Part shown: positions 14,638 through 52,136 of the stretch, piece by piece
Layout: the number at the start of each line of letters is the position of its first letter
Numbering within the stretch: position 1 is the first letter of the stretch
NCBI GenBank assembly: GCA_030077755.1
Contig: JAQJZZ010000007.1
Location: forward strand, 1,922,001-1,986,000
Direction of reading: 5' to 3'
Length of the DNA stretch: 64,000 bases
Origin: Filosporella fistucella
Lineage: Eukaryota > Ascomycota > Leotiomycetes > Helotiales
The notes under the pieces: generated by a model
Database searches by the model: none
Seen by the model: only the letters and a program-made list of their open reading frames with translations
What the model was told of the DNA's origin: nothing
Translations under genes and position numbers: made by a program

Positions 14638-15455
14638 TCATTCAACAACGACAGGGGCGTCAGAACCTCCTTGGTTGTCGACATTGAATCCCATCATTGG
14701 TTGGTACTGAGCACCTTGATCCTCAGATGTAGGGAAACTACCACCCATACCGGCATCGCCAAATCCATGACCTCCGTAGTACTGAAATGAATCATCCTCC
14801 ATGCTATAACTGCCGCCAATTGGAGTATGATATCCTGCGGAGTCTGTATACTCACTGCCGTTGTACTCCTCCTGACCCTGACCCATTCCCATGTTTGTAC
14901 CAGCGAAAGAATTAGGAGCATCATAGTACTGCATAAGATTAACAGCATCACGGATGTTTGGTTGACCGGCTTTTTGCTCAGTCTCATCCTTGACTACGAA
15001 GTGCTCCTTCATGTTCATTGGCTCTGGCTTGACATTACCAAAACCCTCATCATCTTCAGCAAGGTTCTCTTCGAGGAAAGCATCGGCTTTGCGTTTCTTG
15101 GAGGTAGAGGAAGAGGTACCGGACTCCCGGCGTTCGACTTTGGCGCGGACTGGGGTAGGTTTGATGCTGGCTGCGTTTGGGGCAATACCGTGGGCTCTCA
15201 TCATGCGCTCATAGCGTTTGGCACTTCCTGGAGTCAGTTCCAATTTCAAGCACCGTAGATTAGATAATGAGATGAAAACTTACGCAGCACCCTTGCTAAC
15301 AATCTTACATTCCTTAGCAACTTGACCGAAGTCCACCTAATAATGTCAGATGCTGGTTGAGGCTGAGCAGGATGAAAGCTTACCTTCCCATTATTGCTGT
15401 AGCGAATGCAGCTGATGAGGAACTTGAATTGTTCTTCGTTGGAAGCAGGAGCCAT
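14638..15455 (-). CDS. Small Myb/SANT-like domain protein, 236 aa
   Basis: Three exons: 15455-15384, 15336-15284 and 15223-14638, with introns of 47 and 60 nt; the sum is 711 nt and the frame closes. Residues about 6-50 form the domain: EEQFKFLISCIRYSNNGK, then VDFGQVAKECKIVSKGAAAK and RYERMMRAHG. This is a short three-helix Myb/SANT-like fold by pattern. Intron 1 is phase 0 and falls exactly before VDF, the same place as in four other genes of this window. A basic KKRKA block follows near residue 83, then a glycine-, tyrosine- and acid-rich tail with no enzymatic motif. DNA or chromatin binding is inferred from the domain only. Confidence 0.8.
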
Positions 15456-16189
15456 CTGGAATAATGTACACCTCGAAGATTTTGATAGAATATCCGAAAT
15501 GTAAGAAGTGTTGGATGAAGTCTTGAAGTTGGTTGAGTTTGACTATTGGAACTGTAGATCGGATCAAGTTGGTCAGCTGTGGAAGTGACAGTGACAAGTT
15601 GGGTTGAAACCGGGTTAGAGGAGATAGCCCTAATTTAAGAGTTATTAGACTTCATGGCGAATTTCACTACTCAATTTGTCATTCAAAGTCTAAATGCAGA
15701 TCTATAGCAATCTTCCGTTACTTCTCAGCCTGGCTTTCTTTCAAGAAATTGCAAATGGGGGAGAGCAATTCAGCTTATCGGGCGATTGCATACGGCACAG
15801 GAGTATTCAAAGATCGCTGCCTTGGTCATTAGATTACTGAAGAAATTGCTTTATTTCGGATGAACTTGAGGGCTCATGCCTTCTGCAGCAATCCATACCC
15901 GTAAACCCTAGGTACATGAAAAGAAACTTGCCATCCTTCCCAGAGAAGTGATGTTGTCCATCATCAGTGTACCGCAAACGAAAGAAAGAAATCTATATCG
16001 ACGCTACCATCAATTACAACAGATCGATGTCAACCGCAAGTCCTTCCATCAGGATGTCTTCAACAGGAGAAGATGTCTTCAACAGAAGAAGAGTGCTTGA
16101 AGAGAGAAGTACCGAATCGCAAATGCTGTGACAGATTGTAAAGCGTACGAGGTGATTTATTCTGTAGAGAAGGAGATATTAGCCATTGA
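15456..16189. other. Spacer between two Myb/SANT-like genes
   Basis: I see nothing beyond the likely promoter of the 236-aa gene (just after 15455) and the 3' flank of the 315-aa gene. Confidence 0.45.
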
Positions 16190-17438
16190 TCAACAAAACC
16201 TGTGGACTGAAGTACTCTTCCAATCGTTTTGAGTAGCTGCGATCAACTTCGAATTTTTGACCTTCAAGTCAAACTCTGGTCTTGGATAGAAGTTGAGTTC
16301 TCTCCATCGGAGATATGACTCCATACTCATGTCACTCATACGTGCATTTTCAATGTCCAAACCATCATAGTAGACGGTCTGACCATTGATGATTAAAGTC
16401 TTGATCTCATGGTATTCGGCATCATTTTCTGATAGGACAGTGGAAGTGGTAGTTTGGGTGAACTTGCCATTCTTTTCGTTCTCGTTATTCTCCATAATGG
16501 TGTCATCGTCACCTCCATCCTTGACTTCGGGCTCGATTTCAGCATCACCGGTGTTTGAACCTTCCTCATCGGCATCATTATCCTCGGTATGCTCGATATC
16601 ATCGGCGGCGGGTTCGTCCTCGGCCTTCTTTACACTGCTTTAAGGCTGTTAATGATAGTCCATGATGATATGGTGAACATAGAACAAAGGAAGACCTAAG
16701 GTCAAATCACCTACGTCTTAGCCGGTCCCTTCTTTGGCATTTGGCGCTTTGGTGCAAGCTTTGCCTTCGAGACAGCTGCCTTCTTTGGCGCAGCAGTCTT
16801 ACCAACTGCCATCTTGGCTGCAGGCTTCTTCGCAACGGTCTTGCCCTTCTTGGCTGGAGCTGCGTCTGGCTCGGTCTCACCTTGCTGAGCATCACCTTCA
16901 TCGGACTCGGCCTTTTCCTTGGCTGGAGTCTTGCGGGTGTTCTTGGCACGAGCAGCTGGCTCCTTCACAGCGGATGAAGCAGCCTCGACGGCGGCGGGGT
17001 TGCTGGCGCGGATCTTATCGAAGAGCTTCTTGCACGCAGACTTTGCATTCTTGGCGTACTTCTGGCCCACAAGTTCAGCGACGACGTTGAAATCAACCTG
17101 TGATTTTCATTAGTAAGACTGTTTAAATGAGAGATATCTTAAGTTCAGAATCTGGAAATGAGGGTTCAGAGATCTCATCAGGTAGAAATGAGGAGATCAA
17201 GGACGATATTCTTGATCTAATGTTGTGTGAAGCATGCTTGAAGAGAACTTTATAAGATCTGGGTCCGCTGATTGAAGCGGAAATGCGCTTGATGGTAAGT
17301 TGAGAAAGAAGAAGATCTTACATCAGGGACGTCGGGCATCAAGGACATAACGGTCTGCAACATTTGAGTCTCCTTGGGAGTGAGTTGTAGGTTGCCATGC
17401 TCAGCCATAGCTTCAGCGGGAGTAACCTTGGGAGGCAT
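16190..17438 (-). CDS. Small Myb/SANT-like domain protein with lysine/alanine-rich linker, 315 aa
   Basis: Three exons: 17438-17322, 17097-16715 and 16637-16190, with introns of 224 and 77 nt; the sum is 948 nt and the frame closes. The domain covers about residues 18-72: LTPKETQMLQTVMSLMPDVPD, then VDFNVVAELVGQKYAKNAKS and ACKKLFDKIRAS. Intron 1 is phase 0 immediately before VDF, as in its relatives. Residues about 75-167 are a histone-H1-like K/A/P-rich linker (KKPAAK, KKAAVSKAK). The last third is acidic, then ends in a mixed segment including TLIINGQTVYYDGLDIENAR. Probably nuclear; no catalytic motif. Confidence 0.8.
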
Positions 17439-20400
17439 GTTGTAGATCTATCTTGAAAGTCAGTTCATGTTGAGTCGATAGTCGAGGATCCTGTACTCAC
17501 TGTTTGTTTGTATTGAAAGTAGAAACTCTACTGGTGCGATGATAGATGTCTTTGAAAAGACTTGAAAGATTTTGCAGCTGTGGAAAGAGGTGGTTGAGCA
17601 GTGCGAAAGAAAGAAAGTTGAGTGTGTTGTGGAAGAAAGCAAAAGGAGGTGTATTGAGACTCGAGGCTGAAGTTAAGCAGACAACCACAGCAAGGTGCAG
17701 CTAAGATCAGACTAGCCCAGAATGCACGCTATCGCAAATTTGGGTGAATCTTTCTAGCCTCCGCTTATGCCGGCTGCTTTGATTTCTGTTTAGCTTTGTT
17801 TAAAACTAACCTAAATGTATGGAGACAGGACTGCTGAACGTGATTTCTTACGGGAGCCGTCAGCATGAAGTATTTCTTTCTGGTATTTTATTTGAGTTGA
17901 CCTTTTGCTTTTTCCGAGCTCCTACTTCCGTACTATCAAACTCCTGAGCCTCGGATTGTGTTACTCTTCGATGGCGTTCTCCTGGTCAAAGACTTTATTG
18001 AGTATTGAAACACTTGACAGTTGCGGAAGCTATAGCATAGATAGAACTCCCGGGCTGCAGAATTTGGTCATTTGTACTAATTACTTATTCGTTTAGAGGT
18101 CAGAACTATCAGTACCTTCTCGAAATTGTCGATCCCCTCCATTCTCTGCGTATCAGAATCCGCCTCCTCCTTCCCACCCTCCCGAGCCAACCATTACCAT
18201 TCACGAATCATCTTTAGGGACAACATATACTACAAGGTGCTTTCCACAAGCTAGGCTAGGTTCTATGCAGCAAATAGTATTATGAACAAGACGGATCGAG
18301 TTACACATAGAGTAATGGCTACAGAAAGCACAAATGAGCTGCAGCATGGCCATCCTGAAAGCTGGGTGAAGCAACATCACAGGCTATTGTATCATACATT
18401 AGACAATTTTATCAAATGTTGTACAAGTAAATTAATGATTCCTCTTAATTTTGTGATCTTTCTTGGTGGTCAAAAATAGCAGGCAGAAGCTGCTGATACT
18501 TAATTTCAATATTTGATCTCTGGGTGTCGACCGGAAACACCTTCTCGACCTATGGAATTCTAGCAATATTCATTGAGCCCGCTATTGTACATATCCCCAA
18601 TATCTGAAGAACTGATCCATTCCAAAACTCAATGCCCGGATCAGACTGATGCTTCGCAGAAACTCCTCGAGGCTCGGCATTTGGCAACCGAACAATGAGA
18701 ATACTATTTCAAGACGACTTGAAGAGGACAACAGGCTCCAACATCTACGATTGATACTTGATGCAGGTGCTGCCATGTTTCTTTTGATGGAGGTCTCTGG
18801 AAAGCTTTGATCCGTTTCTGAAAGCCTGCTGCTGCATTTGGGCAGAATTTGCAGCAAAGAGACTAAGTATCAAAGGTAAAGCGTCTCAATTAGAATTACA
18901 AGTCACTTTCTTTAATAGAAATACAGCGATAAAGTTTGATAGTGCTCTGTATAATTTTATTCCAATTTTGGGCGGAGGCCGTTATTGATTTACTGCTCCG
19001 GGGTTCACCAATAAAGGCGATTGCAGGGTACAGCAGCTTGTACCAACTAAGCCTCCGAACTATACATATAAGCCATCAAAGTACTAGAAAAATAGATTTC
19101 AACTCCTCGGAGAGATGCATAATCACTTCTGATGTCCAAAACCCAAGCTGTCAGAGAGGGCGAAAAGCAGCAATCTCTGCATACCCATCCCGGAAGGTGC
19201 AAGGCTTTGCACGGCATACCCATATGCAAGCAGCATTCTCAGACAGAACATCTCTTCATATCATGGTGCCTGAATGACATCAAATTCTAGCTCTCCATAT
19301 CTGATGGATGTCTAGCTGCACAGCATCAGCACCAGAGCAGAAGGTACCAGAATCTAGCAGTCCTGTATAATCAGCACAGCATATTCCCAAAAGTGTTATG
19401 ACTATACTCATGTAAAACGGAGACCTTTTCTTGCTGCGAATCAAGCTCATGCTTCTGCCGAGCTACTCTCAACAGAGGTTGGTAGGATTCAGCAGCCGTC
19501 GGCAGCACCCTTCCGGAAACGTGCTAGGCACTATGTTATATGACATTAAACTAATTATAGTTCCAATTTTATCATTACCTGCAACTTATATGCCTCTAAA
19601 TTGGCCGAAGTTGTTTTTTGTTGCTTTGTGGTATTATGCAGAAGCCGGGCTGACCGTACTCCTCCCAGTAGGACGTACGGAAAGCGAGGAGGAATCCCCA
19701 GCAGATAGCGAACTTTGTCGTCCTCAACATTTTGAAACTATATTCTGTATCTGCACTATCCAATATCCCGAAATCCATTTTTTCTCTATTTAAGTCCCAA
19801 GAAACCAATATACCCTGCAGCAAGGCAGCATTTGTCAACACCAAGAAGGAGCTCGCAGCGTCAAACCAAGGCTTGCAGCACTTTCCAATATCATCACATT
19901 CAGTGCTCCCCACTAACGAAATTTCCATTATTCCATGTTAATAATCATCTTTAGTTCTGTTATCCGCCCAGATTCATGTTGACTATGGGGAAGAAGTATC
20001 CATCAGCATCCGGCAGAGCGTTGCAGCGCCTCGGGGGATTCATATGTATTCGAATACCGGTACACCCGTGACTCCTTCAATGTATTCAGGACATGATTAA
20101 TTCGCAGCCAAGTTTATTAGGTCGAAGTTTGGAGGTTGAGTTCTCGAGGGCAGGGTTTCGGGGTAGTGGCTGCTGCATATGGAGGAGTTTTTGAGGGTCG
20201 AGGGTCGAGGGCGAAGCCTAGAAACCTATTATTAGCATGCATCAGATTACTTTGGGGACGCACATAAGATTTTCGAAGAGAGTACAAAGCCTCAAAAATG
20301 GATTGAATGCAGGTTGTTGTTAAGAGGAAGGCAGATATGTGGCTTTGACTTATTTGATATCAGGCCAGAACAATAATTATTGCTCTTATCTGTAAAACCA

Positions 20401-20887
20401 TTGAACGTGTACTCCTTCTGATAGGAATTGCGGCCGCATCTGTGAATTTAATGCCGATTACCGGCCCCATGCGGCGGTATCGAAGCAAGGAGATTGGGGC
20501 ACCAAATGAGACCTTACATGCTGTTACATATCACACGAAGAAAGAAAATATAAATCACATTTAGGGATCATATGTGACGGTCTAAAGAGACTTCACAAAT
20601 CAAAGCAATTATGTGTGTAGATGCCGTAGATTCCTCAAATCCATAACGCCAGTCCATCTATGCTCAAAGAACAGGTCAATGAACCACCTATGATGAAGAA
20701 ATCATCCCGAAAACCATCGCAAGAAAAGACCACAAGTGGAAAGTAGAGAATCTAAGACCCAAAGAGAAAGCTGTATCCATCTACGCCGCCCTCAATCTTA
20801 AGCAACCATGCAAAGCCACCAGTCATGAAGAACGCCTCGATGAAAAACATCAACCTGAAGATCCGTAAACTCCTCAGCCTAGAAAAT
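17439..20887. other. Gene-poor 3.4-kb spacer
   Basis: No supported gene, RNA or transposon was found on either strand. The frames present are short. A purine-rich GAGGGTCGAGGGTCGAGGG stretch lies near 20200. Confidence 0.45.
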
Positions 20888-21576
20888 CTAAGCCTCATCC
20901 TCACTCTTGATTGGCTCAGCCTTCATCTCAACCTCCTCAGAGTCAGACTCAACCTTGGGAATATCCTTCATATCCTCATCGGAGTCAATCTCAACCTTTT
21001 CAGCCGACTTCTTTGCCTTCTTGGCTGGAGTCTTGGCAGCCTTGGGCTTTGGCTCCTTCTTTGGCTTGACTGGAGTCTTCTTGGTGACCTTGTTTGGCTT
21101 TGGGGTTGGTGCCTTTGCCTTAGTCTCCTTTGGAGTGACGATAGGAAGGGTTCCATCATCAAGCATGAAGGCCTCAAGACCCTTGGTGATGTTGATGCCG
21201 TACTTCTTCTTGATTTGGGTGATACGATTGCCGACGGAACGAACGTTGGTGTATCCCAACTCCTTGGCGACACCTTCGTAGTTGACCTGAGATGTGTGTC
21301 AGTATATGTTGTGTCAAAGAGATGGTTTGAGACATCATGTGATGCCAAATTTGCTCTGATGAAAGCGACATTGTGAATTGATGTGGGAATCCGTTCAAGG
21401 AAGGAGTTATGGAGATGAAGGACGAAGAACGGAAAGTGATAACTTACACTCAAAACGCCTCCAGAAGAGTTGCGAAGACAAGCCAAGAACATATCAACAT
21501 CACTTTGTGGCATAGTGTGAGGATCAGCAGCGGCGCCCTTGGCTGGGGTAGAGGGTCCGGCTTCGTTGTCAGACAT
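20888..21576 (-). CDS. Small Myb/SANT-like domain protein with basic and acidic tail, 175 aa
   Basis: Two exons: 21576-21448 (43 codons) and 21286-20888 (132 codons plus stop), separated by a 161-nt intron. The domain is about residues 23-78: MPQSDVDMFLACLRNSSGG, then VNYEGVAKELGYTNVRSVGN and RITQIKKKYG. The intron is phase 0 and sits directly before VNY, equivalent to VDF or IDW in its relatives. The linker is rich in KPKKEPKPKAAKTPAKKAKK and the C-terminus is acidic (EIDSDEDMKDIPKVESDSEE). This layout is typical of small chromatin-associated proteins, but its target is unknown. Confidence 0.82.
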
Positions 21577-24500
21577 GTTGTCGAGTGTTGAGTATGTTTG
21601 TTGAAAGGTGAGCGATCTAAAAGTGATAAGTCAGCTTCGATCTTCATATGAAGGAACCATAACATGATAAGATCATTGAGCATCATGGAGAGGATCATCA
21701 ACTTACTTGAATGATTTGAAGTCTTTGGATGTTTGGATTGAGTGTTGTGTGAAACAGGTTGTTTGTTGCAAGTGTGTGAGTGTGTTTTGTTTGATTTAAA
21801 AGAAAGTTGACCTCGAGGAGGTGCATGGGGGCTTAAATAGATTGTTTCCTGAGCTCGAGGAATGCTGCCTTACCACAATGTCAGGCAACATCATTGCGGC
21901 ATCGCATTGTTCATTCACTGAAAAATACGAAATCGTTTCAGAAACTCAGCATCATCAGTAGGAAGGAATGACACTAAAGAGTCTACATGACATCACAATT
22001 CCGGGGGGGTTAAGCATGATAGTTGGAGCTCACTTAATAGACGAAGCTTCAGCTTTGTTCACCGAATTTGCTACATTCATAAGTACATTACAAAATTATC
22101 GACTTTGATCCAGAATCATTTCATGTGACTAGCTGAAACAAATATATGAGATGATTATGTCCGCAAAATGTTCATCTTCCAAAATTCGTTTAAAGCCGCT
22201 CTTTCCTGAAGTGTGCAACTACCAGACACAGAAATCGCAAAGCTGAGTTTCTGATATTAGAAGCGGACTGGCATCCTGAAGCAATTCTCCAAAACTGGGA
22301 AGGGCAGTGCTATTTAGCTCTATCATACGTACTGGGCCAAGTGTTTGATGTAAATAGTCCTGGTTTGACAAATTACAATAGCAAAATCCTCCAAATGACT
22401 AGCTCAGTGAGGCAGTTCGCAGCATTCAACTCAATTTCAATCATCCATCCCCGATGACTTAGTCTCCGGAAAGAGCCGCCGCTTGGTGGCCGTGTCCGTA
22501 ACCGGCAATTTCGAACACTTGGAAATTTTCCGCACAATGGAATTATTTTGATTTTGAGACTCACATTTGTTTACGTTGAGACGCGAATGACTTATTTCTC
22601 GGAAATGGCGGCCGCTCTACCACCGCATGCACACTTGGTGCTTGACAACACCGTCGATGCGCATAGCCCAGCAGTTCACATGTAATCTCTCTTTGATGTT
22701 GGATGACTTAGCCGGTGGCATTGAGGCTCTGGCTCGATGCTCTGTGTGAGGATCTGGTGGCTTGGAGCTGGTGATGAAGCTCAGCATCACTTCATTATTC
22801 TTTGTGGTAAGTCTGTCGGAAGAATAAGTGCTAACACTCATAGCTTGCTATTACACACCAGCATCGCTTTTCATATGAACCATCTCCTCTTGCCTTCTGG
22901 AAGAATATTCATCGGTAGCGTATTTGGCTTGGACAACGGGGTGCAGCTAGGCTCCCTTTAATGCTCAATTCATTGAGTAGCAATATTGGCATATCTGGAA
23001 GAGACACAGGCATTTTATTAGTAACATTGTGCTTTCCACCCTTCCTTGTTCATATTTGCAAAGATTGCTGACCAGAAGCATCCACTTAGATCGAGCAACC
23101 ACCATACACTTCCTCTTCGAAGACAACTCCGTAAGATGCTCCCCTTGTCTTCCTTGCCCCCCTCTTCTCCAAATTGTAACAATTAATACGTACTCGGTGG
23201 TGGAATTGGATGGCTGCAAGGTGTCAGAGGTCATCTGTGGTCGGTATCAACAAGTGAGGGCGTGGTAATGGACCTGAAGGAAGGAGAAGAGTAAAGCAAG
23301 CAAGATTCAATATCTGTCTGTCTACTCGAAGAGGTCATAGACTCTTCACAACATTGGACGCTATTCCATCTCATCCCTTGGTTACCGAAGTCAGAATCCA
23401 CCTCGAACCTCTCGAGCCACACACCCGTCGATACACACTGCTGAACCCTAACAACAAGGGCCACTCAAGAAATTGCGCCGAGTATCGAAACTTCTACCGG
23501 CATAGATCTAGAGATAGAATTATTTCAGTCGAAGTATTCTGCGGCTGCTCAAAGCTATGAAGTGTTCATTGTCCATAGAGTAGTTTCAAACGAGCTTCAA
23601 AAAGGGGTAGCGAGGTCGCGTGATTCTGCTTTGAAGACTGTGAAATTTGAAATTATGGAGAGATTTAAAATTTGGTAGGTAATATGAATCTTGGAAAAAC
23701 CTTGAGTTCTCTAAGACCTGGAGATGTTGGCTTAGCAAGAATAGGTTACTTGTTCATCAGCGATGGTAGTCATGTGACCCAACCTTCCTCCTCTCAGGTT
23801 GGAGTCTGCAAAAAAATTTACGTCTTTATCTACAGAATAGCCGTTTACATTATTTCCTTGATAAACAACATATCTCCGAAGAATTTCTGTCACAAATCAC
23901 ATCACCCCTCTATCCCAAAAAGTTTGCCTCCTGCCTACGCCTCCCCTCCCCTCCATCACCATCTCCCAAAAAGCAATTCTATACCACACCACCTCACCTC
24001 ATCACCTTGCTGCTTTACCTCCTTCCCATCCACCAAGCCTAGACGTATTTCTTCTGCGAGGAGCGAACGTTACGCCCGAGAAGGATCTTGCTCTTGATAT
24101 CGTGCTAGGATCAGGAGGTCTGAGAGCGCTCGGGAGAGGAGACGGGCGGAACGGGAGGGTACATTTCGTTCAATGCGGGGAGATGGATCCGGTGGGATTT
24201 GTCGGGATAGAAATAGAGATAAGGATTTGGATGAAAGAAGTTTGAGATTAAGAATTAAGAGGAGTTTTTGGATTTTGACGAAGGAATTGGTACATGAGGT
24301 AAATTTGGTGGCCGAAAATAGGGAGCATATGCTGGCTGGGTTAAAGTGCGGGGCAATTGTCAGTACCTACCAAGGGAGGAAGTGATGAACGCTGGAAAAT
24401 TAGCGATCGGGCGCTGGAATTCTGGGGATGATTTTCAGCAATAACAATACAATTAAATTTTATGTCTTGATCATATCGTAGGAGCTAACTAAATTTGATA

Positions 24501-25089
24501 ATACGTTCTTTAAAAATCTATTCAAATATAAAGGAAATTAATTCAAATCGCAAAGACTAAAGAATGCTCCAAAGCTAGTGTTCTTATGAGACAGTGTGAT
24601 AGCGGGGTAATTTACAGGGGCGAAGACGCTGGAAATTTAGCGTTTCATGCCTATATTCTACCCGGATCTCTACTATTCCAAGGATCGATGTCTGCCTATT
24701 CACATTTCTTAATCACAACAACGTGACCACAGAAATAGAACATCGCCATAAAAAGCAGAAATCACAATTCAATATCATAAAACCTATTTCCAAAGAAATA
24801 ACGAAATGGACCCAAAAATATCATAATTCCCAGAAAACAGAAATCCGTAACACAAATATCTCCAGTTCCTACCGACAGCAAACATCATTCACTCAGTCAT
24901 CTCCTCAGTAGTGCTCCCTTCCCGATACTCCTTCTTCACTTTATCCCCTCCTCCATCTTTTCTCTTCACTACTTTCCTCCCTCCCTTACCATCCCTATTC
25001 TTCACAATTTTCAGTGATGATTTATTCATCCCGCTTCCAATCCCATTCCCATTGCTATTTCCAGCACCAATCACCCCTTTTCCACTCCT
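21577..25089. other. Gene-poor spacer, about 3.5 kb
   Basis: No complete gene is supported. Around 23.9-24.4 kb there is a Pro/Ser-rich and then Arg-rich open stretch on the plus strand that may be decayed coding sequence. Two near-identical 16-bp palindrome-like sequences (CGCTGGAAAWTTAGCG) lie near 24391 and 24628. The end near 24889-25089 is the extended frame discussed with the 87-aa gene. Confidence 0.4.
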
Positions 25090-25532
25090 TCACTTAGCAT
25101 TTGTCGGCGACATAGAAGCCTTCGCCGTGACCGGCGGAGAAGCGGCAGGAGCGGATCTATACCCATCTTCCAACTTCCTCATGATTTGCCTAAAGCGTGT
25201 TTGTGCTGTTGAAGCTGAATTGTAGCCTGCTCTTGTGGCGACATAGGACCAGTCGATCTGTGGGTTTGCGGAGGTTTGTCAGATGAGGCTATAGATATAG
25301 ATAGGAGTGGATTTGAAATAATGAGGATGTAGATGTAGATGTAGATGCAGGAATGGAATAGATAAAAGGAAGACGGGATTTGAAGGTATGAGGGCAGGGC
25401 AGGAAACAGATGGAATATAGAACGAAGAGCACATACTTCAGGTTTATTCTTCATATTCAACAAAATATGCTGAAAAAACTCCAAGGGAGACGAAGCTGGT
25501 GTTTTTGCTTGAGAAGGAGATTCTTGAGACAT
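25090..25532 (-). CDS. Small Myb/SANT-like domain protein, 87 aa, with an in-frame open extension after the stop
   Basis: Two exons: 25532-25437 (32 codons) and 25257-25090, separated by a 179-nt intron. The domain occupies most of the protein: SPLEFFQHILLNMKNKPE, then IDWSYVATRAGYNSASTAQ and RFRQIMRKLEDGY. The intron is phase 0 and falls exactly before IDW. The frame ends at TGA (25092-25090), but the same frame stays open for 66 more codons down to 24889. The extension is lysine/glycine-rich and ends STTEEMTE, which resembles the basic tails of its relatives. So this may be a gene truncated by a recent nonsense change, a readthrough product, or a short protein with a chance extension. Confidence 0.75.
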
Positions 25533-31256: not shown

Positions 31257-33196
31257 CTATAGGACTCTTCCCTTTGTTTGCCGCAGCTCCGAGACTTTGA
31301 CATCACGCCATATGCCTACCCAAAAAAACCCAGAAAACAAAACAGCAGTTCCAGCAATACACATTCTCTTTTGGGCGATTGCGTAGGCCTCAATAATTGC
31401 CTGGCGAATCGGTGACCCAATAGGATAGCTCAATTGCAGAGCAAGGTCCTCATAAATGGCTTTGGCGTTGTGTTTTGCAGAGCCTGGTAGTCTTGAGTAT
31501 AGTGCTCCGGGAAGTGTATTATTCCAGATAGCTCCAGACACAGAGGATCCAACAGCACCCCCGATGGATGCGAAAAGCCCCTCCAATGCCAGTATTGCTG
31601 CCACTTCTCCATGCTCAGCGACTGCCATCACAGCCATCTGTTCGCAAATCACCATCGTACCACCGGCACATGCAATTAGTACCTGGCAGAGGACAATGAA
31701 CACGACGTGGGTATCTGGTTGACGGAAATGTATCATCAGACCACCTCCAAGAATTTGGACCGGGACTGCGACCAATGCAAGCCATTTAAATCGACCTGAT
31801 ATGCGAATCAAAAATCCGACAACGATTGCGAAAATACACGACACGATAGAATAGATATTTGCAATGTACCCCGCTTCCTGGATTGAAAGCCCATTCACAA
31901 CTTGGAGGTATGAAGTAAAGTATCCATCCCAGCAGAAGAAAGCTACGAAAAGAGTCGCTGATAGTAAGCATGCACCAATTATCGTAGGAGAAAGAAGTAA
32001 CTTGTAGGGAATGAATGGTTTGACAGCAAATAAGGATTCCCAGGTGAAGAAAATGGCGAGCAGGAGGAATCCTAAAATGATCATTGAAATCGTGGATGCG
32101 GATTTCCATTCATTTGATTCGTAACCGGCGAGCGAGAAGGGTAGGAGGAAGAGGACGAGACCCATTGAGAGTAGAGATACTCCAACAGCTAACTACTGTT
32201 AGTATAATGTCAGATTGAAATGAGGTCAGCATACCATCAAATTCTCTAGCATAATGCCATATGTTCTGGGTGACATTTCTATCCACATACTCTCTCGGCA
32301 GCACGCCTATTCTCTTTGCTTTCTCCTGGTTGATGTATAATATCGCAAAGATAGGTATCGATACCAGCGGGGTAATGATCACGAAGCTCGCAAATGCCCA
32401 CCTGAAACCTGTATTATGATAGAACCATTGTGCAATAGCTGGCCCAGCAAATGTTGTGATGATATATGGTGAGGAGGAGAATGCGAACGCAAGTGCTCGG
32501 TTCTTGAGAGAAGAGGTGTCAACAACCACTATTTCGAGGACATATGACATTCCGTTGAAGCCAACATGGTAGAAAACCTTCCTTAGTCAGTCCGCGGACC
32601 GTTATTGCGAGTTAATGGCTCACCTGAGCAGCTGCGTATGTTTCAATATTTCGGCATGCAGCCATCAATGCCAATCCTAATGTTGCGATGACAGTCATAA
32701 CCGCAAACCCTTCCGCACGACCCCAAAGATCCAACATCTTCGCGATGGGAAGCCGGAGAACCCCACTCATTATACCAGATACGATCCCAATGACTGGTAT
32801 TAGGGAGTGTGCTGAGAAATCACTGACAACGTAGGCTGTGAGGTTTCCGGTGACCTGCTGCTGTAGGGAATTAACTGTATGTACGAGGAGAATGCTACAT
32901 TGGTTAGTAGTGCCCGGAAAAGGATAGGGAACACCCTACAAAGCATATGTCCATATAAGTGATCTCTTCGACCAAACAAGTGTAATAGCCTCAGCTCGTT
33001 GAACACCCTCTTGGGCATCATGATCCGGTTCTTCGTCATTTCGACTACTAATACTCCCATATTTCAGATCATTATTACCCAACCCGGCAGCTATCTCCTC
33101 CGCAATCAGAGGATCCGTGACCTCCTGTCCAAGGACTCCAATATCGACATTACTGACCGGAGGGGTATAGCTGGTAAAAGGTTTCGGAAGGTGCAT
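31257..33196 (-). CDS. Siderophore-iron permease of the ARN/MFS family, 600 aa
   Basis: Four exons: 33196-32940, 32894-32624, 32577-32235 and 32188-31257, with introns of 45, 46 and 46 nt; the sum is 1803 nt and the frame closes. The N-terminal 75 residues are hydrophilic, then about 14 hydrophobic segments follow. The first membrane region contains VHTVNSLQQQVTGNLTAYV and MSGVLRLPIAKMLDLWGRAEG, hallmarks of siderophore:H+ symporters of the Sit1/MirB type. Such proteins import ferric siderophores across the plasma membrane. Length matches the family (about 600 aa). I chose ATG 33196 (MHLPKPF); an in-frame ATG at 33280 would add 28 residues. Upstream are two perfect ATCWGATAA motifs, suggesting repression by an SreA-type GATA factor when iron is plentiful. 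No siderophore-synthesis gene is visible next to it, so it may take up foreign siderophores. The exact substrate cannot be read. Confidence 0.92.
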
Positions 33197-33298
33197 GGTG
33201 TATTCAGTATTTCTAGAGGTCAGAAGCAAGCAAAATGAAGCAAGAAAATGAGACAAAGGAGATGACGGGCACGCAAACACATAAATCCTGTTCGCATC

Positions 33299-33307
33299 TT
33301 ATCTGAT
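33299..33307 (-). promoter_or_regulatory. SreA-type GATA site (ATCAGATAA)
   Basis: ATCAGATAA reads on the coding strand of the permease 103 bp before its start codon. It matches ATCWGATAA, the known binding consensus of fungal iron-regulatory GATA repressors, exactly. Confidence 0.6.
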
Positions 33308-33445
33308 CCTCCAGAAAATTCAAGTGCATCCGCGAATGCCGCTTTCGGCATCGTTAGCTGGAAGGAATGATCATCGGAGCCAATGATGCTGTGTATTCAG
33401 CTCGGCAGTTCCCACTCTTCGGGTTTGATAGCGTGGTGGCTACGC

Positions 33446-33463
33446 TATCAGATCATCTGATAA
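33446..33463. promoter_or_regulatory. Palindromic double GATA site with a perfect ATCTGATAA
   Basis: TATCAGATCATCTGATA is an 8-bp inverted repeat around one central base at 33446-33462. It continues to ATCTGATAA (33455-33463), again a perfect ATCWGATAA. It lies about 250 bp upstream of the permease start. Two perfect matches in a short promoter are unlikely by chance. Confidence 0.6.
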
Positions 33464-36408
33464 CTTTAATTGCGTGTTCCGCGGCCGGAATCCCCCCGGA
33501 GACACAAGGGCACAGGAGATCCGATTTCGGTGCATCGGGATCAATCATGTTGTATACTACTTAGAGAAGAAGAGATCTGATCCGTAGTAACAAGTAATTT
33601 CTGATGTATGCTCGCCATTACCATTGCAGACCGATATCCAACGGCCTTGAAATAATTGTTTATGACGGAGGAAGGTTGAAGACGATTGTGGGTCAACATG
33701 CTTGACTGATCTACTCCCGCTCCTACCCGAACAATTCTATCCCGGAGTTTAACCGCCATCGTAGCATTGAGAATTGATCACGATATACCAATATATGAGG
33801 TAGCCTCCCCGGTAGAATTGCTCCACATTGGTTACAACAGGTGTTAGCTAGTCATTGTCATCACTTCGTCAAATTCTTGTCATTCTATAATCTTAGCTTT
33901 GAATATGCCTGCACTAACATTTCGTTGCAAGACGTCTGGGTAAACTTCTCTTAATCTCCCTCACCCCTCCTATATTAACAGCTTTAAGCCCCGAGAACAT
34001 ACGGAGTGCAACGAAGTCCTCGAGCTCATAGTTTACCAAGTTTCGTTGCGTTCCGTCCGCTTTAGCCCGCTTTCTCATCTGAGCTTGAATCCAACATTTC
34101 GTTGCATTCCGTCAACTCTAGCCCTCTTTCTTATCTGAGCTTGTAGAGTATAGGCAAGGTTCGTTGCACTCCGCTAAAGTCTTGCCGTTTTAAATTTTTA
34201 GGTATAAGAAAGCTTTCGTTGCACTCCGCTGAAGTCTTGCCGTTTTATCCTCTTGGGTACAAGGAAGCCTTTCATTGTATCACGGCGAGTCTTTAGCTAG
34301 GTCTAAGTGAAACAGCGAACCGGCATGTAGAATTTTAGGTGCTATCTTATAAGGTAATTGTATATATACGTGTCTCCTCAACCTTGTTGCTGCGTCTCTA
34401 AAACGCATCACTCATCTTCATGAACACATAAAAGCACTGTGGCAGATCCTGCACAGCATTTGATAGATGGTCCTCAGAGAGTAGCGAATTGATGTTTGCA
34501 ACCCAAGAATCTTACGCATGAATAGAGCCCCGGCTTAGAATCACCCAGCTATATCAGAGTATCGAAAGGCTCTTCCTAAATCAACCTTTGTTCTGCGATA
34601 GCAGAGATACATGCCAAGAGTGTTCTTCCATTATTGAGAAGATACAAGACTTGGTACAGGTGGCAATCAATCCTTCAAGTAGTGCAACAGTATCACCAAA
34701 CTCGTACTTCGAGCAATGGGAGGCACAAATTCCTTGCTTCATTTGAACTTGCTGCACAACGTTACTATGTTGTCTAACGGCTGCTCCAGCATTAATTCCG
34801 ATTCACAGGGCCTCCGCACGGCATTATTGCATCCGGATATGGCCATCCACAAACTGCGAATACCACAAAGCTTTCACGCCTGTATATCTTCTTATATGTA
34901 GCCGTCAGCAGCCACGGAAAGTGCTGCTAGGAGTCCTCGACAACTTGGTTTCAGCATCTTTGGTGGCAGGATCTATTTTATGCCTTTTAAGACTTGGAAT
35001 CTCTGGGGGTTGTCGCAGATGACTGCACCAGCGTACGCTAGGAGACATGTACTCAAGCGCAATGCCATTTATACTCCAATCCACTTGGACATTGAACATC
35101 TCGTGTTCCATTTCCAAGCACTACCTAGCGCTTGCTGTCCACAGATGTGATTCGACTTGAGGGGCAGTGAACAAGAGTGTCGTTTTGCTTCAATGATTGA
35201 GAGAGAGGACTTTGTTGTAATAATGCTGTAGAGCTGCATCGAATGCTATAGCTGTTGAGTATGCTGCAAAACGCGTAAATCAAGGACGCGACTTGAGACA
35301 AGAGGCATGTTGACCACCGATTTCAGGCGCATCCGTGGTAGTATAGTAGATTCTGATACCTTGAAAGGATTCCATGGGTTTCGCAGAGAAGGTGCAATCG
35401 TGTGGATGTTTCGCGAATGTTGTGAAGCGTCCAGGTGAATGTAGGTAATGGAAGGTTATCTTGGGTACTTAGGTACAAGCACAGTAGAGGAGCAGGTACC
35501 GAAGTAGTGCCATAGGACACTGCTATCCGGAAAGGGATAAGCGTAGTCTGGAGTGAACACAAGCGAAAGCAACCACCTCAATTGTCTTCCTGCGTGTCTG
35601 TTTCGTGTCTTTTGTAATTATCACGATCTCAGAGCCTTGCTGGAAATATGTGCACCTTGTGCAGTCTTTCCTTTCTTAGGTCGTGCAACTCTGACAAGTA
35701 GGTGCAGGAACCGAACGGATCCCACCATCACAAGGTCTTGGTGGGGAAACATATTGCGAGGTTGAGTTGCTGAAAAGTTTAATTTGCATTTTATATATGA
35801 AGTCTCTGTTGATTTCAAACACTGGCATCATTATATTGAGGTTCAAAGTATATATGGAGTACCATACAAGCATTAGCTATGGCTCTTCTTCCCACAAGAG
35901 CAAACCTCCACCATATATCTCATTCCTGTTCCAATTCAGCCCCGAACGCAAAGAAGCAACTTTCAACACACTGTTGACCTCTCATTTTAGCGCTTACCTT
36001 TCACGTCTCACCTCATACCAAGGCATATCACATCACATTCTCAACACGTTGCAAAATCTGAAAATCACGCTTTTATTATCTCTTGAAAAGAGTAGCTAGA
36101 AGCTAAAATGATGATGTATTATCTGCAAAAGACCATGCATATCCTTTGTAAGAAAACGCCGTGAAGAAGTCGCTCTCCTAGACTCGTGGGTCGTAATCGA
36201 GGAATGTTGGAGTTGAGTTGGATGTTGTGGTGTAGTGTCGAGGTTGTGGTATGTGAGGGTGTTGAGGATTAGTAAGAGAGGTCGGAGTGAAGAAGGGATT
36301 AGATGTACATGCTATGATTCCATTAGTTTGGTGTATGGATATTAGGTTTTAAGAGATAAATTGACACCACTTCCACCAAAAAGTAAAAAGAAAAGCAAAG
36401 GAGAAAAC
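33464..36408. other. Gene-poor spacer, about 2.9 kb
   Basis: No supported gene. A degenerate tandem array at about 34041-34290 is listed separately. Frames at 34716-34901 and 35323-35562 show no features of real genes. Confidence 0.45.
34041..34290. repeat. Degenerate tandem repeat with TTTCGTTGCAYTCCG core, period about 55-63 bp
   Basis: The core occurs at about 34041, 34097, 34160, 34215 and, decayed, 34271. Flanking text such as AAAGTCTTGCCGTTTTA or CTCTTTCTTATCTGAGCTT is shared between adjacent units. An isolated copy lies near 33920 and an inverted one (GGAGTGCAACGAA) near 34010. Confidence 0.65.
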
Positions 36409-39112
36409 TCACTCATCATCATCCAAATTCCACACCTTCCTCTTCTCATCCTCCTCCTCTTTCTTTCCCACCTTCATATCAGCACCATGCTCCATCTTAA
36501 ACAAATATCCCTTTTCCTTTTCCTCATCCTCATCTTTCTTCACCCCACCATTCATATCACCCATTCCCACTCCCATTCCCTCATTCTTAAATCCACTTCC
36601 CTCTCCAGCACCAAATCCTCCCCTCTTCCTCTTAACACTACTCCTAGCACTCTCCTCCTCATCCTCCTCATCACCAAAGTATCTTTTTCCGGAACCAGAA
36701 GAGTACTCATCCATGGACGAATGCGAGTTTGCGAGCGCGGCTTTGGTGTTTCCCTTTGGAGCGCGGACTTTTGGTTGGGGTTTTGCGGGCGTGGAGGGGC
36801 TGGAACCAGAAGCGGATTTGGATTCTTTGCGGATTTTTTGGAAATGTTGACTAATGATGGATAATATGTTAGCGGTTTAGGTCTGGAAAGAGGGGTAAGA
36901 GGGGGAGAGGAGAGATATGGGATAAAAGAAGTGTAAGAAGAGGTTTTAGGGGAGAAGTGAAATAGAAAGGAATCACTTGAATGATGGTGCTGGTGATAGA
37001 AAACTTGTCGGGAAATGAATGAAGGGCTCTGAGAATGCAGTTGCTGTGACAAGAGGAGAAGTGATTTGATAAGGTATTCTTACTTCACCCTGCCTCATTG
37101 AAGCTGGATTGAATATTGTGATACAAGCAACAAATATGATGCTGCAAGGTATTCTGACTGAGCTTTCACTTGTGCTTTAAAAGTTGAGTAGCTACGAAAA
37201 ATAGCAAGTTGAAGTAACGAGGCAGTAGTGTATGAAGATGATCTAGTGTCGCTGCTGCATAAATTGACTTCAAGTGCTTGAAAATAAGAAAAGGGTCAGA
37301 GTGACATGGAAAGATACTTTCAAATCGTTCATGAACTGATGTTATAGTGTTCATCGCTGAACTAACTTCGACATGCAAAATCGGTTACGACGAGAGATTA
37401 TGGTACACAGCCAGAAGCACCCTACTGCTGCATAAAGTAACTTTGCAGTACCGCATCGTACAAAATGGGAGATGTGATTCTGATATCGCTACCGCACAAG
37501 AATCACAGCTTCTCTTCAAGACGGTATGAAATGCAGTGGCATATAGAAATGGGAGAGCTCGCACAACTAATATGATGCCACTGCGGTAGCATAAACAAGA
37601 GGGAAGAGTTTATGATATTATTGCCGCACTAGAAGCATCTCTCTAGCACCCAATCCGAGTCTAAATTCTGCGACAGACAATGAATATGCAGCTCGCACAA
37701 CCGATTCGTTTTCATCATAGAAGTAACAGTGAACAGATGTCAGGTATCGATGAAGAGAGGGAAGTGACCCGCAGATCGCGGCTGGAGCGTAACATCTCTC
37801 CAAGTCTCAGAGCGAGTCTGGAGTGCAGCAACATGTGGAATGAAGGTGTGCTGCATGATCAAATTGGCACCGCCATAGCCGAGATAGGAACGACAACGAT
37901 GAGTGGAGACGAATTGGGTGAGTCTGATATCACCACTTCACTAGCAGCAGAATACTACCCTTCGAAGCGGACTCGAGGGGCAGCCTCAGAGCAGGAAGGA
38001 GCTTAGTGGTGGATGCCACCGAAATAGCGAGAGCAAGCCACACCAAAGAACCAGAAAGGAGAATATGTTTTAATGTCTCTGTCTCACTAGAGTCTGGACT
38101 TTTGCCGCCAGTGCAACTTAAAGAGTCGCATTGATAGAAGGAGGGGCTATGTGCTTGTTTGAGCAAAATGATAAGAGCAGAGGACAACCATGATTTGAAA
38201 GGGGGATGTGCTTACAATTTGTATGTATAACGAGACTTTGAACTACAGAGCAAGTTGGAGATGGACCAGCGAGCAGGAATATGGTAACTCGCACTAAGAA
38301 GCGATCCATAGCATCAACGACAGCGAGTTCAGCAGAAAGGAAAGAGTGATTCTAATATAACAGCAGCATGAAAATTGCTCCAAGTACCTTTTTGAATCGA
38401 AGCAAGTTCAGGATTTGTGTTCAGCAAAAAGAAGATAGCATATCCACAAGATCCAATACTTCCATCATGATAGCGGCTGATTCAAAGGAAATGGAGAAGT
38501 AATGCTGATGTCACTGCAGGAAATAATCATTGCTCTAAGTACTTCTCAGGACAATCCAGTCTGCAGCAACAAGCGAAGGAGGGTCTCAGCTTGATACCAC
38601 TTCAAAACCAGTACCAAGCATCCAGGATAAGTGGATCGCCAAAGGGGGGTGTAAACGCCGAGGATCGATACAAGCGCGATAAAAATACCGAACATCAACA
38701 ACGAGAACACTAAAACAGAAATTATTCCATACCACAGCACCACAAAGTCATCGCTCTACTCAGAGTAACTTCTGTATCGCATTCGTGTAAAAAAAAGGGG
38801 GGGGGGGGGGAGGGGGAGGCTAGCTGAATGCCACCCCCCAACCCCAAAAGCCAACGATGACTCCTCTCATAGAAGTGAAACACTCGATGCCACTACCATC
38901 TTTATACCAAATAATATCAAAAACTTCAAATTCCAATAAACCAAAGAGAAAAAATCTCACCGACAAGCCTCATGAGTAAAGCTGTAACCCTTAGCGTTCA
39001 TCTTACTCGCAATAGCAGGCCAGATAATAGATTTCAAAGCTCCTTCTTCGATGATGGCGAGGAGGAGATCCTTGTCTGCCTTGTGGTCCCACATGGATGA
39101 TTTAGGAGGCAT
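36409..39112 (-). CDS. Myb/SANT-like domain protein, 197 aa, split by a 2.1-kb intron
   Basis: Exon 1 is 39112-38961 and exon 2 is 36850-36409. Both join in phase 2 (CG|T, Arg) to give 594 nt with a closed frame. Residues about 7-60 form the domain: MWDHKADKDLLLAIIEEGA, then IIWPAIASKMNAKGYSFTHE, ending ACRQHFQKIRKESK across the junction. Downstream are Ser/Pro/Lys-rich linkers, SSVKRKRGG (likely nuclear signal), and an acidic-basic tail ending WNLDDDE. The intron, 36851-38960, is 2110 nt, far longer than any other here, and is filled with degenerate repeats. An alternative acceptor at about 38770 after a strong C/T tract would append only SYSE and stop, giving a domain-only product. Exon pairing rests on phase and on the expected domain ending. 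Confidence 0.68.
37200..38770. repeat. Diverged repeats of about 80-110 bp inside the 2.1-kb intron
   Basis: Related phrases such as GTGATTCTGATATCGCTACCGCA, GATGCCACTGCGGTAGCA, GATATTATTGCCGCACTAGAAGCATCTCTC and GATGTCACTGCAGG recur at irregular spacing. Units are too diverged for an exact period by eye. They lie entirely within the proposed intron. Confidence 0.45.
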
Positions 39113-40947
39113 GGTTGTGGATTTAGTGTTTGGTGTTTAGTGAGGTGGTTGGTGTGAGGGTAAAGTAGCTGGGTTTGAGGCGCGGTAGTTGGTATCTGGG
39201 TGCGGGAGTTGATCTTGGGAGGGAGAAGATCGAGGTCGATGTATGCGGGAGTTGATTTTGTAAGGCAGAAATTCGAGGTGGAGGTATGCGGTGGTTGGTA
39301 CTTGTGTGCGATCTTTGGTATCTGGCTGGGGTAGATAGTGTCTTGCCGTGGCACTTGAATCTTGCTCTAGTACTTGGTATCTGAATGCGGTACTCGGTAT
39401 CCCAGGATTGAAGTACGTGTAGAAGTAACACAGTATTGCAAAAGTCAGTTGATTGAAAAGAAGCAAAGTGAAAGTCAGGAAGAAGATAGCGATCGATAAC
39501 ACTTGGTTGAGTTCTCTCGATCTCCTCGTGAATAACCTCCCACTTTGGGAAATTCACTTCTAACCCAAGTCAATCCGTAGCCAATTAAGGCGGAGAGATA
39601 CTTCAGATATTAAACTTCACCTTAAAGCTAAAGAGTCACAAAGAGAAGCCGATCAGCTCACATCTTGAGAGCAAATTGTAGCATTAGTGACGACTTGTCT
39701 AGGCCTATCGCTCTTTACTTTCTTGGTATACCTCCGCACAGATGTAAGGATAAGTGAGTCATCGTACCCGGCTATTGCATACAGCTGTCATTGTTGCAAA
39801 AAGGAAGGGCAGGCTGGGTTCTTGTTCTTTGGTGTTGCACAGAGTTTTGATAGCCATGTTCTTTCTGATGTTGGCCCAGCCACCCGCTTCCCCGGAAATA
39901 CAGGGGCGAGAAACAGCGGAAGCAGGTCTGGTGTACGCAGCCGATGGTGACCTGGAAAGAAACCATTATTTCAATTAAGAGTAAATATAATCAATTACCT
40001 GTAAATAATAACAAATGTTTCATTGCACAATAGCTGAATGAAGAAATTATACACAAAGATACGAGCTAGCCATGCACAAGTAATGCTTTTATGCAGGTCC
40101 CTGTATAATCCCGCCCCATTCCTTTTGCTCGCCGCTTTACCACGTTCCCAACGCCGTACCAATCCCTACTAGCTTTCTGCATGCACTCTACGCGCAAATT
40201 CGCGTCGAACAACGACATCGAATGAAGTTGCAGCCACGGTTCTTTCCCTAGACAACGGAAGCTCTTTCTAACCTGATCAACAAACCTCTTTTACTCCTCA
40301 TCAGGCAACCATAGTAACATCGTCATATTCCCAGGCCATTTTCCTCAAGAAAGCGGTCCGAGCCCTCTTATCCAGCCCTTATCCTGTGCCTTATTGCTGC
40401 AGCTATGCCTTGCTATGCATATTCACAAAGACTAGAGAAGAACTACTTGTGTGTATCTCGCCATCTTGCAGCTAAAGAAAGCTTTGTATATGCCAAAGAG
40501 CGCTATTCCCTCTCTTTCCTATAACCCAATGTCCCATCTGCACGCAACCCCCGCCATCTCAAAGGCAAAGGTTGTGAAGCGGGGAGATATTTCTATTTAG
40601 GTCTGCCTCACCGATCCTCACGCTCTTTTCTGGCCTATTTCACACCGCCTATTCGCGAGGGATACTTTTCTCTGATCGCTGTGATTCTTCTGCTACTGCT
40701 GTGCGAAGGCAAATCTGGAAAGGTATTTTAAGAGTACTTCCTCTATTGCAAAGAAGAAAAGAAGACTTGAATTCTCGAGTGCAGAGATAGAGCTTTGATT
40801 TCTGACTTTTGTTGGCTTGGTACGCTTGCAAAAAGTGGTTGTACGATCTTTTGAGAAAAGGGTCATTCACGCTCTTAGAGATCGAGTCACTTACTCCCGA
40901 GATTTCTGCACACCGACAATCTGGCGAGCCTTCGCAGGACAGAGAGG
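39113..40947. other. Divergent spacer between two Myb/SANT-like genes
   Basis: The 197-aa gene reads leftward and the 265-aa gene rightward from this 1.8-kb region, so it holds both promoters. The first 450 bp contain repeated GGTAGTTGGTAYYTGGGTGCGG-like text. No gene is supported within. Confidence 0.45.
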
Positions 40948-42101
40948 ATGCCGAATGATACTGCCATTACGAGGTTGCTATATGCAATACTCAGTCAGAA
41001 ATGTTTGAAAGATGTGAGTTTTTATATTCGGGTTGATATTTTGCTTCTGCTTCCTGTGCCCCACTTCGCCAAGATGCCTCTATTCCCAACTCCCTTACTC
41101 ACCACATCTTATCATATAACTCACATGACACTGCTTCCTCTTTCTCTCTTCATCATACTCTCTCATGTCCGTTTTGAATATTACCTAAACTAATATCCAT
41201 CACACAGATCGATTGGAACCGCGTAGCTCACGATCCCGTCCTCAGCCAAGAAATCACAAATGGCCATGCAGCACGTATGCGCTATTCGCGCTTCAAGAAA
41301 CAGATGGATGGGACTGCTAATACACCTACACGCCGTCGAGCACCGAAAGGAAGCAAGAATAAAGTTGAGAAGAGTCCTAGGAAAGGGAAGGGAAAGGGGA
41401 AAGAGGGTGGAAAGGGAGGAGAGAGTGAAGATGATGAGGCTGAGACTGAGGAGGGAGTGGGTGTTAAGGTATATTTGATTCTTTTCCCTCTGTACTACTT
41501 CACCCCGAGCACGCTATTATATCTGGACTTTAATCCATATGATCCCAGGCCCCCTGAGCTTTTTTTTTTCACTCATCTCAATCACATATCCCACCTCGTC
41601 TAGGAACAAAAAAGCTAACACACCTCTCAGCGCGAGCCCTCCCTCCCAAGCATGCTAACGCCCCTCTCAACAACCGATTTCCCAACCCCAAATTCCTACC
41701 TAAAAACCGAATACGATTCGCCAAACCCACATACATACCACCAACCCTCTCATACCCAACTTCACCGCCAAAACTCACCAACCCCTTCCCCCTCCCCTCA
41801 AACATACCACTCTCAGTCCCACCGCTCTCATCAAACCCAAAGTCAAGACTTGGACCCCTACATCTCCTCCTTCACCTCTTCACTCCCAGGTCTCCCATCC
41901 CCTTCCCTCTTCGGTGAATACGGGATGGGTATCGATGGCTCGTATGGAGCAGGTGGATACGATTTGTTCTCGTCGCCAGCTGCTCCATCTGAGTTCGGGG
42001 AAAGCTTTGAGGGGAGTGGGATCAAGAGGGAGGAAGGAGAGGGCGTGGGAGTCGCGGTGAAGAGGGAAGAGAGGTGGGAGGAAGGGTATAGGGGGATGTG
42101 A
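40948..42101 (+). CDS. Myb/SANT-like domain protein with Ser/Pro-rich tail, 265 aa
   Basis: Three exons: 40948-41013, 41208-41468 and 41631-42101, with introns of 194 and 162 nt, all joins phase 0. The domain is at the very N-terminus: DTAITRLLYAILSQKCLKD, then IDWNRVAHDPVLSQEITNG and HAARMRYSRFKKQMDG. Intron 1 sits exactly before IDW, as in four relatives. A strongly basic stretch follows (RRRAPKGSKNKVEKSPRKGK), then an acidic patch, a Ser/Thr/Pro/His-rich region and a glycine/tyrosine-rich part (GEYGMGIDGSYGAGGYD). The end is mixed-charge. It is the only member of the family here on the plus strand. Probably nuclear; DNA binding is inferred. Confidence 0.82.
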
Positions 42102-46415: not shown

Positions 46416-46494
46416 GGGCCGTTGGTCTAGTGGTATGATACTCCCTTAGCATCAAACTTGGGAGTGGTCCTGGGTTCAATTCCCAGACGGTCCA
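46416..46494 (+). tRNA. tRNA-Ala (anticodon AGC) with a 7-nt intron
   Basis: All four stems pair: acceptor GGGCCGT/ACGGTCC, D arm, anticodon stem CTCCC/GGGAG, T stem CTGGG/CCCAG with TTCAATT loop, and discriminator A. Position 3-70 is a G-T(U) pair, the main alanine identity element. The anticodon loop is 14 nt; removing TCAAACT (46452-46458, between positions 37 and 38) leaves TTAGCAT, so the anticodon is AGC (46448-46450). The body looks tRNA-Pro-like in its first bases, but G3:U70 and the anticodon agree on alanine. Confidence 0.93.
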
Positions 46495-48590: not shown

Positions 48591-48861
48591 TGTGAAAGGC
48601 GGTGGTTATCCGGAACAAGTATTGGGGATACTCAGGGGTCTGCGGAATTATTTGAAGTTGGTCGGAGTTGTGGTACGGTGGCTAAGTATTTGTCCAAAAG
48701 AAGCTGGAAGCTCGCGATAGATGACGTTTCGGCTGTGCCTGGCGAGCAATCTAAACGCCGAATTCCAGGCTTGACTCGAGCTACAGCTGTAGCTCAATTC
48801 ACCTGAATATTTACATTGTCTTCTCCACAATAGCAACAAACGAATTCTATGAAACCTCATA

Positions 48862-50289: not shown

Positions 50290-50627
50290 TGAGTGTATGG
50301 TGTAAAACTAATGATACCCGGATAGCAATAAGGACAGGAGAAGTGATAATGGAGCACAAGCATAAGCAACGGAATAGATATAATAATCCCGGTGCTTTTG
50401 ATTAGCATCACGACTTTTAATGAGGCTGGAAATAAGGGATAAATAACGGCTAAAACGATGGGAAACGTTCATGTTCAAGACTTTTGATATCTGCGCATTG
50501 GATCCACTAAGTGCCAAATAGCCTCTACGCCATTAACTAGTCATACAACACGGGCTATCATGCACAAATCTACCATTTTATCCTTCAATAAGTATCCCAA
50601 ACGCCAAAGCTTTCCTCCTCTCCTCGA
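50290..50627. other. Convergent 3' spacer between lin1 and rvb2
   Basis: Both genes end here on opposite strands, so this 338-bp stretch must hold both 3' ends and poly(A) signals. Nothing else is seen. Confidence 0.55.

Positions 50628-52136
<1,509 letters not shown>

Follow-up and report, generated by a model that had tools for sequence, protein, structure and literature searches.

Classical Myb/SANT domains, those of the PF00249 class, have a three-helix fold, as in c-Myb, Cdc5, TRF2, RAD and CoREST. MYT1, MYT2, MYT3 and FlbD are presented as putative Myb-type regulators of filamentous ascomycetes, and a survey of fungal transcription factors (PMC3998117) defines its Myb class by PF00249, as far as the portions of these sources available to us go. 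The Pfam entry PF22980 (Myb_DNA-bind_8; in UniRef, Myb-like DNA-binding domain-containing protein) covers the domain only, and our literature searches, with partial listings and most subscription journals uncovered, met no work on PF22980, its array, its linkage, a shared intron or tails with the psi-K-x-E motif. Here we analysed a window of 64,000 nucleotides from the helotialean fungus Filosporella fistucella (bases 1,922,001-1,986,000 of the 2.28-Mb contig C6; genome of 45.8 Mb on 19 contigs). It holds six small genes, g1 to g6, which an initial annotation had described as a dispersed family of six Myb/SANT-like proteins. We propose, with a probability of about 0.6, that g1, g3, g4, g5 and probably g2 are an old array of paralogous single-Myb, SUMO-controlled nuclear regulators of Pezizomycotina, lying beside g6. 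Five computed results carry this proposal: membership of one domain family, an inherited intron, the wide range of g1 and g5, their linkage in other fungi and a strong enrichment of psi-K-x-E in their tails; linkage, intron and tails go beyond what the Pfam entry describes.

Splicing by hand yielded open frames for all six genes (Table 1). Against PF22980, whose cut-off is 27 bits, g1 scored 82.1 and g5 39.5 bits, while g3 (27.3) and g4 (28.0) passed only narrowly. The cut-off was also passed by two other genes of the genome, c15 on contig C15 and c6b at 1.625 Mb of C6, and by all ten homologues scanned. No PF22980 match was found at E<=1 for g2, which scored 10.2 bits against a wider profile; it is otherwise linked to the group by the position of its intron and probably belongs to the PF22980-type array. 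Nor did g6 match PF22980 at E<=1: its best Pfam match, Myb_DNA-bind_4 (PF13837), reached 22 of 27 bits and thus stays below the cut-off. A profile built from the domains was run in leave-one-out form, and each of nine domains outscored all 500 of its own shuffles; the margin was narrow for g2, at 10.2 bits against 7.2 for its best shuffle, and for g6, at 12.0 against 9.0. The family of six is therefore upheld for g1, g3, g4 and g5 and marginal for g2, whereas g6 represents another Myb/SANT-like type; its intron site does differ, as had been noted, but the domain is not PF22980. None of eight proteins of this genome scanned matched PF00249 at E<=1, and none of four homologues scanned against NCBIfam matched a family.

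The initial annotation had also claimed that five genes have a common phase-0 intron directly before the motif VDF, VDF, VNY, IDW or IDW. The spliced models of g1 to g5 confirm this, with GT-AG ends and, 13-25 nt away from the acceptor, a motif resembling a branch site; g2 and g5 each have one additional intron behind the domain. The phase-0 intron is also found in c15 at the same place, although this gene lies on contig C15, and hence is not specific to the cluster; the domains of c6b and of the neighbouring c6a frame have no intron. In relatives, introns were deduced from protein records in which the intron is retained in the translation. Five g5 homologues (P0136, P0142, P0160, P0190 and P0216) read ...KCLKD-V...(Q/K)-IDW, and four g1 homologues from Sclerotiniaceae (P0075, P0078, P0086 and P0099) read ...NGK-V...Q-VDF, each with the intron translated at the same place. 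The second intron of g1 is conserved as well: 21 of the 120 g1 homologues listed have unrelated sequence in front of AKRYERM, and its last residue is S or R, the outcome required when an AG acceptor is translated in phase 2; the other 99 comprise 72 with the domain at that place (70 by script, 2 by eye), 14 with AKRYERL and 13 starting behind it. These records indicate that the phase-0 intron is ancestral, older than the lineages compared. Since it predates them, the shared intron is uninformative on a recent local duplication; it had been taken as an argument for local duplication followed by divergence. Duplication of paralogues that inherited the intron is upheld, but it is old and, as the range of the homologues shows, not lineage-specific.

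This range was read from the best 120 of 166 matches for g1 and the best 120 of 338 for g5. Among the full-length matches listed, those closest to g1 come from Mollisiaceae (63% identity, 301 bits), whereas the best Botrytis match listed reaches 144 bits and 45% identity; Sclerotiniaceae are thus not nearest, which suggests a helotialean fungus outside that family. Listed g1 homologues include Lecanoromycetes, Eurotiomycetes and Sordariomycetes, and listed g5 homologues include Sordariomycetes, with P0182 from Sordaria brevicollis among the latter; each class was checked on one or two of its species. Of nine sequences of the Filosporella genome, g1 was the best match for every one of the 120 listed g1 homologues, and g5 for every one of the 120 listed g5 homologues. 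At least g1 and g5, judging from their homologues, are thus members of an old conserved family and no lineage-specific expansion.

Within the chromosomes of filamentous ascomycetes, genes tend to lose their order (PMC3219968), which makes the linkage of g1 and g5 notable. We compared the 26 species present in both listed homologue sets, taking an equal size of the species' longest contig in both lists as the same contig. The two genes share a contig in 18 of the 26, as a raw count. In 11 species with positional-looking locus tags (Joint Genome Institute tags, in seven species, were left out of the distance estimate), the tags of g1 and g5 differ by 4-37 in ten species and by 109 in one; the difference is 4 in Scytalidium, 5 in Phlyctema and 6 in Coleophoma. 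Two of these 11 species are Dermateaceae and one a Leotiomycetes of uncertain place; seven are presumably Sclerotiniaceae, a family assignment looked up for Stromatinia. Between g1 and g5 our window contains six genes that can be recognised: g2, g3, g4, a repeat-rich open reading frame (ORF) at 27.4-29.2 kb, a major facilitator superfamily transporter and g6. In six of the eight species lacking a common contig, one or both contigs are shorter than 140 kb (B. porri is additionally drawn from two assemblies); in Diplocarpon the g1 and g5 contigs measure 4.35 and 4.32 Mb, and in Venustampulla the linkage looks truly broken. P0161, a 360-aa model from Pyricularia pennisetigena, consists of a g5-like protein, a methionine and then a g4-like protein, the latter part matching g4 alone in the Filosporella genome (E 0.005). 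It reflects either a gene fusion or an annotation that merged two genes, and in both cases g5-like and g4-like genes would be neighbours there.

Within the Filosporella genome, a PF22980 search gave 11 matches, which we assign to seven loci and, on C19 and C18, to two further matches that are very weak; only the best candidates were scored, making family counts lower bounds. The cluster accounts for four of the seven loci; another two are at a distance of about 312 kb on this contig, and one is on C15. None of 400,000 random draws of seven places in 45.8 Mb brought four of them together within 26 kb (a formula gives about 2.6e-8); the clustering, tested after it had been noticed, is beyond chance. 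The two distant loci, c6a and c6b (L002, L003; C6:1622192-1626759), are two PF22980-like genes in divergent orientation; the c6a frame is interrupted at codon 3 and once more later by stops, owing to decay or unrecognised introns. A piece resembling the second exon of g2 (77% identity over 26 aa) lies at C3:1683194-1683271 (L014 1501-1578), preceded by sequence that ends as the g2 splice acceptor does. The description of the locus as a repeat-rich region found no support: of 19.2 kb searched at 17,600-36,800, only 33,862-34,228 (about 0.37 kb) and 32,654-32,751 (about 0.1 kb) matched elsewhere in the genome, a lower bound as simple repeats were skipped. The former, with pieces 68-97% similar on C17 (several) and C10, is probably a dispersed repeat. 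Both stretches lie outside the Myb-like genes, and the g1 region and the g6 intron matched only themselves; we thus rejected a dispersed repeat as the source of the cluster.

The three-helix fold, which the initial annotation had proposed to check by structure models, was found for the g1 group: the structure that AlphaFold predicts for one g1 orthologue contains a confident Myb/SANT-like domain of three helices and matches solved Myb/SANT structures, among them c-Myb, Cdc5, TRF2, RAD, CoREST and the Ada2 SANT domain, at 7-19% identity to those listed. A sequence search for solved relatives returned a single chance match (E 2.2). The g5-group model has helices at 3-15, 25-29, 32-35, 40-57 (predicted local distance difference test of the block 67-85); compared with 21 chains, it gave 11 listed matches with no Myb among them, which does not imply another fold. 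In alignments A3 and A4 (52 and 37 of 120 homologues, hand-picked for spread), helix 3 is basic and nearly invariant inside the g1 group and inside the g5 group, and differs between them. The g1-group model shares its three-helix fold with classical Myb/SANT proteins. The proteins scanned here differ from these in lacking a PF00249 match, in the low identity to the listed structures and in having one PF22980 domain per protein, P0161 excepted. The likeness to MYT1, MYT2, MYT3 and FlbD is one of description only, and MYT3 is described with two Myb domains, in contrast to the single-domain proteins here, again within the available parts of these sources.

The tails had been called unrelated low-complexity sequence, a description that is incomplete for g1 and g5. 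Behind residue 60, psi-K-x-E, described as the SUMO-acceptor consensus (PMC3554661, available part), is present in 116 of 120 listed g1 homologues and in all 120 listed g5 homologues. Its total is 267 in the g1 group against 15.8 in shuffles and 361 in the g5 group against 18.0, the shuffles ignoring the kinship of the 240 sequences; reading the motif in reverse gives 12 and 20 occurrences, respectively, and ten neighbouring ORFs of the window, used as a control, hold 6 against 6.1 in shuffles. In the g5 group the motif lies within the last 40 residues in 106 of 120 listed homologues and is closely followed by W in 93, from Leotiomycetes to Sordariomycetes; a proline follows within three residues in 35 of 120 listed g1 and 76 of 120 listed g5 homologues. 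KKRK, which we take to be a probable nuclear signal, recurs in 106 of 120 listed g1 homologues, and just 44 of 120 listed g5 homologues have a run of three basic residues. In Filosporella itself psi-K-x-E is clearly above chance in g1 (2) and g5 (4) and marginally in g6 (2), not above chance in g3, c15 (whose model lacks its 3' end) and c6b, and absent from g2, g4 and c6a. That g1 and g5 homologues have non-random tails is a new observation. As in SUMO-controlled factors with synergy control motifs such as Nurr1 (PMC3554661, available part), psi-K-x-E stands in the tail; the Nurr1-type factors have other DNA-binding domains, and the fungal proteins are likened to them by motif alone.

From these features we derive a working model. 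Each protein would bind DNA via helix 3, and, as this helix differs between the g1 and g5 groups, their DNA targets would differ. Basic motifs such as KKRK would allow nuclear entry, and the proteins would act as transcriptional regulators, probably as repressors or activity-limited factors, with SUMO attached at psi-K-x-E of a disordered tail limiting or directing their activity. g4, scarcely more than a domain, may compete or partner with the longer paralogues, and g2 and g3, with their lysine-rich tails, may act nearer to chromatin. A more specific version, in which several single-Myb paralogues have stayed close together since before the split of Leotiomycetes and Sordariomycetes, keep their own invariant recognition helices, share control through SUMO on the tail and form one SUMO-set module unseen by PF00249 searches, is tentative and less likely than not.

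The closest competitor to regulators of this kind is a set of architectural chromatin proteins, whose domain would bind histone tails or DNA non-selectively and whose lysine-rich tails would act like those of linker histones. The lysine/proline/alanine-rich tails of g2 and g3 suit such a role, as do the CoREST and Ada2 SANT domains among the structural matches; since the tails of g1 and g5 are of a different kind, with recurrent psi-K-x-E, and each of these two groups has a basic helix 3 that hardly varies, we regard it as rather unlikely. Myb/SANT-like domains occur in transposon proteins too, and the array could be the remnant of element insertions that left domesticated proteins, a view with which the detached g2 exon fragment on C3 is consistent; the members, however, have introns at one common place in the spliced models and little of the interval is repeated elsewhere, which makes this origin very unlikely.

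Slightly less probable still is a local expansion of recent and lineage-specific origin, possibly serving genome defence, along the lines that the initial annotation had suggested. Dense clustering would be expected of it, and no homologue of g3 was found (its domain region as a query gave one candidate, and none was scored). Yet g1 and g5 homologues occur in several classes, mostly on one contig where comparable and with introns at the same places, for which reason we rejected it for these two genes, and the domains are merely 13-28% identical to that of g1. Nothing in the analysis points to genome defence, and nuclear regulators seem more likely.

Other features of the window were also recorded. 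The repeat-rich ORF (27356-29191, 612 aa) contains a 27-bp unit about 20 times (YSVPEHTPT) and resembles a repeat-rich cell-surface protein. The g6 intron, unusually long for an ascomycete, contains four decayed 32-nt direct repeats. ARAGORN called a selenocysteine tRNA at 46416-46494, probably a false call; to our knowledge, fungi of this group do not use selenocysteine. An Rfam scan of the window gave no match. To the right of the cluster (47344-63834) lie genes of housekeeping type: UFD1, a GYF-domain gene, a RuvB-like gene (TIP49) and a DUF382/PSP gene, which we take to be SF3b2-like.

Table 1. Models of the six Myb/SANT-like genes and their introns (window positions)
Feature	Position	Strand	Description
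g1	14638..15455	-	exons 15384-15455, 15284-15336, 14638-15223; 236 aa; PF22980; tail with KKRK and two psi-K-x-E
g1 first intron	15337..15383	-	47 nt, phase 0, before VDF
g1 second intron	15224..15283	-	60 nt, phase 2, AAG acceptor, within domain; position kept in relatives
g2	16190..17438	-	exons 17322-17438, 16715-17097, 16190-16634; 314 aa; marginal Myb-like; tail lysine/alanine-rich, then acidic
g2 intron	17098..17321	-	224 nt, phase 0, before VDF
g3	20888..21576	-	exons 21448-21576, 20888-21286; 175 aa; PF22980 barely above cut-off; lysine-rich tail
g3 intron	21287..21447	-	161 nt, phase 0, before VNY
g4	25090..25532	-	exons 25437-25532, 25090-25257; 87 aa; PF22980; scarcely more than domain
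g4 intron	25258..25436	-	179 nt, phase 0, before IDW
g6	36409..39112	-	exons 38961-39112, 36409-36850; 197 aa; other Myb/SANT-like type, nearest Myb_DNA-bind_4 (below cut-off)
g6 intron	36851-38960	-	2,110 nt, phase 2
g5	40948..42101	+	exons 40948-41013, 41208-41468, 41631-42101; 265 aa; PF22980; four psi-K-x-E, last near C-terminus
g5 intron	41014..41207	+	194 nt, phase 0, before IDW; same position in unspliced relatives

The PF22980 family is widespread in filamentous ascomycetes, yet we met no study of it in the literature listings searched, and the scanned members are unmatched by PF00249, the definition of the Myb class in the available part of the survey of fungal transcription factors (PMC3998117). 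A lasting close linkage would call for explanation, given the scrambled gene order of ascomycetes described in the available part of PMC3219968. If our proposal is true, linked and strongly conserved paralogues with placed SUMO-type motifs would give access to a level of gene regulation in fungi that has gone unstudied.
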